A DNA stretch of 64,000 nt from Candidatus Bathyarchaeota archaeon (lineage in GTDB: Archaea > Thermoproteota > CALKCG01 > B24 > DRYS01): the NCBI GenBank assembly GCA_025058595.1, contig JANXEK010000004.1, positions 1 to 64,000 of the forward strand, given 5' to 3'. Of this stretch, positions 23,653-25,437 are shown piece by piece. A program made the position numbers and the translations under genes. The notes under the pieces were generated by a model. It had not been told where the DNA came from, did not search any database, and was given only the letters and a program-made list of their open reading frames with translations. Positions within the stretch are counted from its first letter, which is position 1, and every line of letters starts with the position of its first letter.

Positions 23653-25437
23653 TTAAATTTTTCCCTTCCTAATCTTAGCTATCTCAGCTATCAACTCTTT
23701 ATCTTCAGCCGTAAGGTTTTCGCCAAGCTTCTCGTACAGTAAGAGCTCATCCCTCTCACTTAGGTATACGTATAAGGTATCCCCTTCATCGAAATGCCTA
23801 CCTACCGTAGGTTTATCTATAGATATAGCAACCTTCATACCAACCGTAGCTTCAGGTATAGGTTTACCCCTATCTTGCACCTGCTCTATCCGTCCTAGAA
23901 GCCTCCCATCGCTACGCATAAGAGGTAATCCTGCTCTTATCCTACCAGCCAGTACCTCTACACCTACTATTGCCGGTTTACTCCTTCTGAAAACATATCC
24001 TTGCAACACTTTTATCTTACCAGGCATAACTAGATCCTTTAACGTAAGCTTGGATAGCCTATCCCTCTCGGATGAAGCCCAATTCAGATAATCCTCTATG
24101 AGACGGTATATTATATCGCTAGAAAATATAGGCGTTAAACCCATAGCCTCCTCCTCGGCTTCAGGTAGGATCTTAACATTGAAAGCTAGTATAACACCAT
24201 ACACCGGATCGCTAGCTCTACTAGCTTCAGCCTCTATAACATCCCTCCTAGATATAGGACCTACATCGGCTATCCTAACCGGTACGTTATTCCGTTTAAG
24301 CTCTGATATCAAAGCTTCTAGGGAACCTAACGTATCGGCTTTAACCACCACACCTATACGATCGGTTCTGATAAGTAGCTCCTTAACCTCCTCTACGACG
24401 AGCTGCATATATTCATCGACAGATCTACCGGGCTCGACTACGTATAGAGGTGCACCCGGTATAGCCTCCTCCAAACCTGGTGCAGCTATCTTCACACCAG
24501 CTGCAGCTGTAACTTCTTCAACCTGCTCGAAACCTCCGGCAGGCATCCTTATCTCCTGCAAAGGCTTCGGCTGAAATAAAGCCCTGATCCTAGTCAATAT
24601 AGGAGCCGATCTACCCATGGTTACTATCAGATCGCCCTTCCTAAGAACCCCATCGTATATTACGACGTTAACCGTATGCCCTAATCCGGGCTCCTCTAAA
24701 ACCTCCAGTATGCTACCCTTCGCAGCTCCAGATGCTACGGTAAGCCTACTACGCATATACTGCTGGGTTATACCGATTAGAACGGCTAGAAGCTCAGGTA
24801 TACCCTCACCCGTCTTAGCTGATACAGGTATTACGGCGACCTCCCTCCTGAAATCTCTTATCCTATCGAACCTATTAGAGTTGAATCCGTAGGCGGCGAG
24901 CCCGGATATTATATTCGATAGCTTAACCTCGAGCTCCGCTATCACGTATGAATTCTGTCTTCTAAGAGATTCTAGAAACATAGCCCCAGGGTTAGGTTTC
25001 CATCCATCTATCAGATCTATCTTGTTAGCGGCTACTAGGAACGGAACCCTCCTAGATCTTAGAAGCTCTATGGACTCGACTGTTTGAGGTTCAACCCCCT
25101 TCATAACGTCTACGACGAGTATCGCTATATCGGCTATCGAACCACCTCTACGTCTAAGGTTAGCGAAGGAATGGTGTCCAGGTGTATCTATGATGAGGAG
25201 GCCTGGAACATCTATCCTCCACCTATAGGCTTCCAGTAGGGGTTTACAGATAGCTTCGATCGTATCGGCTGGGAAGAAGCTTGCACCTATATGCTGGGTT
25301 TAGGAGACTCCATAGCAGAGCCTCATCCCCCCAGCTTCCCTCATAGCTATAGCTGTCCCCCTAATCTTATCGAGTAAGGTTGTCTTCCCATGATCTACAT
25401 GTCCCAGTACGACGACTATAGGGCTCCTTATACTCAA
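23653..25437 (-). CDS. infB: Translation initiation factor aIF5B (IF2-like), interrupted by a BHB intron
   Basis: aIF5B is the ribosome-dependent GTPase that promotes subunit joining. Exon 1 (25437-25324, 38 codons, TTG start behind GGTGAGGAG) encodes VVLGHVDHGKTTLLDKIRGT...REAGGM. Exon 2 (25299-23653, 548 residues) continues TQHIGAS, then IIDTPGHHSF (G3) and ANKIDL (G4), domains II-IV and the C-terminal helices. Between them lie 24 nt (25300-25323) with an in-frame UAA. A TGA in frame just before the TTG excludes a longer start. Spliced product 586 residues, the normal archaeal length. Unspliced, translation would stop after 45 codons. It heads the operon with S6e, aIF2gamma and PIN, and is divergent from alaS. 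Confidence 0.93.
25300..25323 (-). other. 24-nt archaeal BHB intron inside aIF5B pre-mRNA
   Basis: In the minus-strand RNA the flanks form an outer exon helix GCUGGG/CCCAGC (6 bp). Then comes a 4-bp central helix GGGA/UCCU (one G-U), flanked on opposite strands by 3-nt bulges UGA and AAA, then an inner helix GGCUC/GAGUC (5 bp, one G-U) closed by a 7-nt loop. Cutting each bulge after its second base (UG^A and AA^A) releases exactly 24 nt and joins ...GGG GGG AUG to ACC CAG CAU. This restores GGMTQHIGA, the G2/switch I motif, between codons 38 and 39. The whole motif spans 25293-25335. The intron carries the in-frame UAA. Confidence 0.9.

Follow-up and report, generated by a model that had tools for sequence, protein, structure and literature searches.

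The cbf5 pre-mRNA of Crenarchaeota reportedly contains an intron, the finding being credited to Watanabe in 2002. According to Yokobori (2009; PMC2738675), these introns measure 16-44 bp, their splicing has been seen by cDNA in some species, the heterotetrameric form of the tRNA-splicing endonuclease EndA is implicated in it, and a negative regulatory role has been proposed; the same pages mention unproven 12-bp inserts in an archaeal virus and give a range of 11-175 nt for archaeal tRNA introns. As of 2020, cbf5 was the only archaeal mRNA reported with an additional bulge-helix-bulge (BHB) intron (PMC7714728); an earlier, sequence-only reading of the present locus names cbf5 as the established archaeal protein-gene intron. 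Endonuclease types are dealt with in PMC12397907, and PMC12558985 describes a single circular RNA from a Halobacterium gene for a hypothetical protein, aIF5B not figuring in the passages concerned. Among the titles and abstracts listed in literature searches, none reports a BHB intron in aIF5B (infB), and in a review that mentions both aIF5B and archaea (PMC7531240) the word intron occurs in a reference only.

The stretch of archaeal DNA that was analysed (the window; 64,000 nucleotides) belongs to a draft assembly (G000; 66 contigs, ~92% complete) and holds an aIF5B gene interrupted by 24 nt. It is highly probable, judging by the comparative evidence assembled here, that this insert is a pre-mRNA intron that would be spliced by EndA and the ligase RtcB. 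A real and functional BHB intron in aIF5B would make this the second gene class after cbf5, and we regard that as very likely.

The broken frame of aIF5B

The insert lies between Met38 and Thr39, and taking it out joins ATG to ACC, restoring REAGGM/TQHIGAS and a frame of 586 residues (Table 1). The sequence-only reading had claimed just this, a frame broken by 24 nt with an in-frame UAA and mended by excision, and it is borne out: translation and tblastn place the insert at 25323-25300 of the minus strand, the tblastn match on G000 spans residues 1-586 with '1 TAA', and the spliced protein aligns to positions 2-583 of the 591 in NCBIfam TIGR00491 (aIF-2) with 760 bits, the longest frame that is intact without splicing covering 104-583 only. 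The existence of the insert with its in-frame stop is thus confirmed. Read straight through, the message gives 38 codons, then RLCYGVS, then UAA, a 45-residue peptide that would end in what we take to be switch I; the codons upstream of Met104 presumably contain both the P-loop and switch I. The neighbours are the genes of ribosomal protein S6e and aIF2-gamma and, divergently, that of alanyl-tRNA synthetase.

Table 1. Features of the interrupted aIF5B gene and of related loci (window positions unless another contig is given)
Feature	Position	Strand	Remarks
aIF5B (infB) gene, two exons and one intron	23653..25437	-	Spliced translation; predicted 586 aa, TTG start at 25437
Exon 1, codons 1-38, P-loop region to REAGGM	25324..25437	-	Spliced translation; pN/pS 0.033 (G000 vs G001)
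Predicted intron AGGCTCTGCTATGGAGTCTCCTAA, 24 nt, phase 0, in-frame TAA	25300..25323	-	R1 RNA model match 25293-25335
Exon 2, codons 39-586 and stop, begins ACC CAG CAT (TQH)	23653..25299	-	Spliced translation
Longest ORF intact without splicing, 483 aa from internal Met104	23653..25104	-	Lacks N-terminal part of GTPase domain
Predicted spliced-junction peptide EAGGMTQHIGASFF			
BHB outer helix, 5' strand GCUGGG	25330..25335	-	
BHB central 4-bp helix, 5' strand GGGA (exon 1)	25326..25329	-	Compensatory GCCA/UGGY in other families
5' bulge UGA	25323..25325	-	Predicted cut after second base, 25324/25323
Intron hairpin, inner helix 5-7 bp	25306..25322	-	G001 sequence differs yet pairs
BHB central helix, 3' strand UCCU (intron)	25302..25305	-	
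3' bulge AAA	25299..25301	-	Predicted cut after second base, 25300/25299
BHB outer helix, 3' strand CCCAGC (exon 2)	25293..25298	-	
cbf5 intron loci at the Asp-codon position	L188 (G000 C7:33376-34359), L189, L193-L197		

A break of this kind could be a sequencing or assembly artefact, or the gene could be a decayed pseudogene whose functional counterpart lies at another locus. A second copy could indeed lie outside a draft assembly, but we consider this explanation exceedingly improbable. The second intact infB that, by the sequence-only reading, would have refuted the intron is not found in the G000 draft assembly, which has a single full-length aIF5B match, three others being 33-36% identical and confined to the GTPase domain. 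In a search of ~5.8 billion predicted proteins (7999 candidates scored), every one of the four nearest clusters (76-88% identity; 13 sequences on 14 contigs) lacks the N-terminus, with lengths of 483-497 aa, and the nearest full-length protein comes next, at 62% identity; no intronless copy from the window's lineage was thus seen among the best 120 of 7857 matches. Annotation pipelines silently truncate the gene. G001, the only other genome of the genus searched (89% identity), has a 24-nt insert in the same place, different in sequence but able to pair (the same insert is read in MAG contig JAGTQC010000007.1, labelled Bathyarchaeota, which is apparently G001's own); 31 further genomes have an insert too.

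The artefact and pseudogene accounts have also to contend with strong purifying selection on codons 1-103, that is, on both sides of the insert, a segment that no single intact frame of G000 covers without splicing. Between G000 and G001, pN/pS is 0.066 in these codons and 0.120 in the rest of the gene; in five other pairs of genomes the value for codons 1-103 is 0.000-0.086, and it lies below that of the rest of the gene in 6/6 pairs. One more pair, G027-G048 (0.183 in codons 1-103, 0.703 in the rest), was dropped because its second introns, described below, differ in length and the indel probably misaligns the codons.

The window has other features that may be recorded here. A gene for a HerA-type ATPase (DUF87), in which Pfam recognises an intein splicing domain, occupies 59561-62155 (minus strand) and adjoins NurA (62110-63231), and ~1.2 kb between tRNA-Thr and a 496-aa ORF (45610-46827) has no 80-aa ORF and no Rfam match.

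Same-site inserts in other genomes

In a sample of 398 genomes of the phylum, 387 of which gave an aIF5B match, 33 (the window's own included) have an insert at the same codon boundary, always between the third base of a Met/Ile codon and Thr. The inserts are 17-33 nt long, with 32 distinct sequences among the 33 genomes, and they are spread over 17 genera and 9 families (f1 2, f7 17, f36 1, f18 2, f26 1, f31 1, f28 2, f33 6, f35 1). At least four orders are represented, since f28, f33 and f35 are absent from the three orders that were searched as such. Carriers were found by a search of relatives, by these order-wide searches and by an RNA model (R1) applied to the 398 genomes; R1, based on 23 of the inserts and so liable to overlook divergent ones, gave 34 matches in the sample, and it alone covered the lower-scoring families, because the protein search of the phylum listed its best matches only. 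One R1 match, in G137, is a 19-nt chance match with no aIF5B match in the surrounding 4.2 kb.

Family f7 has the insert in 17 of its 22 genomes. It is precisely absent from G019, G026 and G168 (loci L025, L027 and L133), whose outer helices would by hand count pair at 5/6, 5/6 and 4/6 positions; in G186 this portion of the gene is missing, and no aIF5B was obtained from G068. Among order-mates of f1, G002, G004 and G005 are without insert, and G003 and G006 are cut off at the site. The alignment of infB from relatives that the sequence-only reading had proposed thus finds the insert in 32 other genomes, together with precise absences inside f7.

A second search, with a re-reading of the main loci, was made of thirteen genomes in which the aIF5B match was odd or missing. 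Eight (G226, G263, G282, G314, G366, G371, G374 and G397) have an uninterrupted Met/Ile-Thr-Gln site; the gene of G263 has a stop at residue 153, and those of G366, G374 and G397 have frame breaks away from the insert site. The second search gave no aIF5B match in G303 and G361, only a distant GTPase in G068 and only a C-terminal piece in G338. G386, in which the gene is disrupted at many points, the site region among them, looks like an assembly error and was not counted. Matches of ~2.6 kb were considered as long introns and rejected: in L039 the additional HSP is a distinct GTPase match further downstream, the aIF5B match being in one piece, and neither L053 nor L059 is among the loci shown as split or stopped. 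As a separate observation, stop-free in-frame insertions occur in aIF5B after residue 334 (L246 in G226, 35 residues), residue 145 (L247 in G282, 22 residues) and residue 216 (L242 in G371, 9 residues).

All of the inserts at the Met38/Thr39 boundary break the frame, 12/33 by their length and the 21 that are multiples of three by an in-frame stop. Removal of the same-site insert alone leaves an unbroken frame in 31/33. The two that remain, G027 and G048, have another insert, which separates residues 13 and 14 (L142, 18 nt, and L143, 17 nt). Its site, GGC-CAT^GTA-GAC, falls within the P-loop motif GH^VDHGK, and by eye it forms a BHB with a GGCC/GGCU central helix.

These lengths and endings bear on the proposal that the insert is retained and tolerated, through stop readthrough, ribosome bypassing or a restart at Met104 that yields a working 483-aa protein. 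Such a frame does exist and automatic annotation has adopted it, but we hold the proposal to be very improbable. Plain readthrough is ruled out for 12 inserts because their lengths are not multiples of three. Classical bypassing needs matched take-off and landing codons, and programmed bypass was rejected on the count that no insert ends in a codon matching the preceding one (0/33 ATG or ATA). A Met104 restart is at odds with the purifying selection on the 103 codons upstream, and a factor without the segments that we take to be P-loop and switch I should not be a GTPase. Among other classes of element, a group I or group II intron was rejected since 24 nt is too short for a catalytic RNA core, and an intein since the insert is a mere 8 codons long and one of them is a stop; at gathering scores, the only Rfam matches in the 64-kb window are two tRNAs.

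On a tree of 133 aIF5B genes (a quick IQ-TREE analysis with SH-aLRT only and some long branches flagged, 11 of 144 rows having been left out as fragmentary or bacterial), the insert requires no fewer than 7 changes, of which starred branches force 5. Carriers fall into two regions of the tree, f7/f36 with f28/f33/f35, which have the GCCA helix, and f1 with f18/f26/f31, which have the GGGA helix. The patchy distribution with its precise absences fits an old mini-intron with losses, and it also fits repeated gain. Some carriers are likely methanogens, since mcrA was found in 9 of 18 genomes tested, namely all nine tested of f7, f36 and f33 (eight of which carry the insert); it is absent from the nine tested genomes of f1, f2, f18, f26, f28, f31 and f35. 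The mcrA-bearing carrier families are presumably Methanomethylicia and Nezhaarchaeales. A Thermoproteota methanogen exists in pure culture (PMC12244365), and it may belong to one of these families.

Bulge-helix-bulge structure and covariation

The minus-strand RNA can form a BHB that spans both exon borders, with outer helix GCUGGG/CCCAGC (6/6), central helix GGGA/UCCU (4/4) and bulges UG^A and AA^A, the predicted cuts falling between the second and third bulge bases. Helices, bulges and cut sites are those drawn in the sequence-only reading, and its 5-bp inner helix can be extended to 7. The 5' bulge lies inside and the 3' bulge adjoins the outer helix, which we take to be the topology of tRNA introns. 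With an A on both sides, the junction could slide by one base on sequence alone; the BHB cut rule fixes its position.

A BHB by itself is not rare, and BHB-like structures occur elsewhere in the coding DNA of G000. Under strict criteria the window yields 10 matches vs 2, 1 and 2 in shuffled sequence, the 9 others all lying within listed ORFs, one of them on the opposite strand; that 9/10 are on the minus strand, and that they exceed the shuffles, is unexplained. Random 24-nt inserts (46% G+C assumed, boundary set by protein homology) gave a 4/4 central helix together with an inner helix of at least 5 bp in 505 of 2,000,000 trials. A 50-nt stretch around the site folds better than 200/200 shuffles (z -3.68) and one of 61 nt better than 192/200 (z -2.18). 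For the naked RNA of the window a rival fold has a lower energy than the BHB (-22.4 vs -19.8 kcal/mol at 37 C), so that the BHB costs 2.6. In 32 of the 33 inserts (L125, which holds an N, was omitted), the exact BHB is the minimum-energy fold of 11 at 37 C and of 16 at 70 C, and the penalty at 37 C has a median of 0.5 and a maximum of 3.9 kcal/mol.

Among carriers, the central helix pairs 4/4 in 32/33 inserts despite turnover of its sequence (GGGA/UCCU vs GCCA/UGGY), L232 having 3/4, and the inner helix has at least 3 contiguous bp in 29/33, falling below 3 in L123, L126, L141 and L240. The outer helix is 6/6 in 29/33 insert genes and 5/6 in the other four, vs 6/6 in the exons of 2/101 intronless relatives, a subset of loci from the 398 genomes in which some genomes are possibly counted twice. 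In an alignment of 23 inserts (22 distinct) of the 24 then known, L125 again being omitted, 98.3% of cells are paired vs 84.6 +/- 1.3% in shuffles, and slid registers give 24.6-44.3%. Changes on both sides of a pair number 36 vs 10.0 +/- 2.7 in shuffles, with 0/500 shuffles reaching 36, and compensatory changes are found in both intron helices; in the same 23 inserts, the number of pairs with a both-side change and the number of pair types do not go beyond shuffles (97/500 and 135/500). The exon codons follow suit: the flanking Gly codon is GGG in 33/33 insert genes vs 11/101 intronless ones, in both of the separate tree regions, and the Thr codon is ACC in 31/33 vs 27/101. Because the 33 genomes are related, the codon and covariation counts are not independent, and a Fisher value of 8e-23 exaggerates the contrast. 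Taken together, these comparisons support the splicing interpretation offered in the sequence-only reading.

Splicing machinery, the cbf5 intron and known systems

In the mechanism that we propose, EndA would cut the pre-mRNA at the two BHB bulges, RtcB would likely close the ends, and the spliced mRNA would be the source of aIF5B. Since the unspliced message would give the 45-residue peptide, production of aIF5B would hinge on EndA and RtcB. Two PF01974 (endonuclease subunit) proteins are encoded in 10/10 genomes tested, G000 included. L148 of G000 has Tyr, His (in IDHAP) and Lys at the expected places, and L155 lacks the His; we take these three residues to be the catalytic triad, and on that basis call L148 catalytic-type. 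The genes of the catalytic and structural subunits are placed at G000 C19:378-635 and C25:6698-6955, flanks not included. An RtcB ligase gene lies at G000:C1:18781-20088, and RtcB is found in 15/17 genomes tested; it was not found in the insert carriers G048 and G062, whose assemblies are 85% and 77% complete. The RtcB genes of G026 (L177/L179) and G004 (L178/L180) are themselves interrupted near position 50, by what are probably inteins, in single frames of 968 and 1002 aa.

It is conceivable that EndA cuts the BHB and the exons are mostly left unjoined, so that the element would serve to lower aIF5B mRNA, as a switch at the processing step, and would not be a productive intron. Precedents can be cited: the EndA processing of BHB sites in the 5' UTR of Haloferax HVO_1309 (PMC7714728) and the negative regulation proposed for the cbf5 intron (PMC2738675). 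We nevertheless rate this as very unlikely. It would leave aIF5B in 33 genomes with no uninterrupted source seen, RtcB is encoded, and removal of the insert alone restores the frame in 31/33, frame-shifting lengths included, the remaining two carrying one more insert of the same kind.

The cbf5 gene of G000 is interrupted as well, with two in-frame TAG: GGGACCCTAG^33 nt^ATCCC, in a canonical BHB (outer helix GGGA/UCCC, central helix CCCU/GGGG, inner helix of 11 bp). Its boundary, between the first and second bases of an Asp codon, is that given in PMC2738675. Because cbf5 is interrupted at the published position too, the window's organism likely splices at least two mRNAs. A first motif search matched none of the interrupted cbf5 copies and a second parsed 7/10, giving intron lengths of 33 nt in G000, 34 in G001, 76 in G003, 14 in G027 and G090 and 13 in G048 and G062; those of 13-14 and 76 nt fall outside the range of 16-44 bp reported in PMC2738675. 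cbf5 is also split in G002, G004 and G005 (in the last by 17 nt, by eye), and no break was seen in the tested f7 and f36 genomes.

An aIF5B intron would be the second gene class of archaeal mRNA intron, situated in a core translation factor and present in at least four orders, and it makes archaeal intron gain and loss, and their link to EndA type, directly testable; gene callers truncate the genes that bear it. A broader view, which we advance tentatively and rate at somewhat less than even, is that mini-introns have a hotspot, ancient or recurrent, in the aIF5B GTPase domain, that the tRNA-splicing machinery gates the translation apparatus, and that archaeal protein-gene introns are regular and under-annotated. 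If true, the inserts rank with the smallest mRNA introns of archaea, the organism of the window has to splice cbf5 and aIF5B before rRNA pseudouridylation or ribosomal subunit joining, two genomes must splice the aIF5B mRNA twice, and archaeal protein-gene introns are hidden by N-truncated gene calls instead of being a cbf5 curiosity.

The likeness to the cbf5 intron is close. Both are short, have a BHB or BHB-like structure that is (here, by prediction) cut between the second and third bulge bases, interrupt the region of catalytic residues, and are patchily gained and lost. They differ in the host gene (a pseudouridine synthase there, aIF5B here), in position (inside an Asp codon there, phase 0 at Met38/Thr39 here), in the pair of introns that a single gene holds in G027 and in G048, and in their carriers, which for aIF5B include likely methanogens and other lineages; cbf5 splicing is proven by cDNA in some species, whereas the aIF5B intron is known from its sequence. 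With archaeal tRNA introns it shares an exon 1 that provides the 5' strand of the central helix; in contrast to them it lies in an mRNA, and its outer helix is built of coding codons. Haloferax HVO_1309 (PMC7714728) is likewise an mRNA whose BHB sites are an EndA substrate, but there the BHB is in the 5' UTR and here the insert is inside the reading frame. Inteins of infB (NCBIfam PRK14845, an IF-2 model of 1049 positions) would sit in the same GTPase domain and likewise close to the P-loop, with profile position 475 aligning to aIF5B residue 19. The extra part of that model is, we assume, the intein. An intein is spliced at the protein level and runs to hundreds of residues, whereas the aIF5B inserts are 17-33 nt long and bring in stops or frameshifts.
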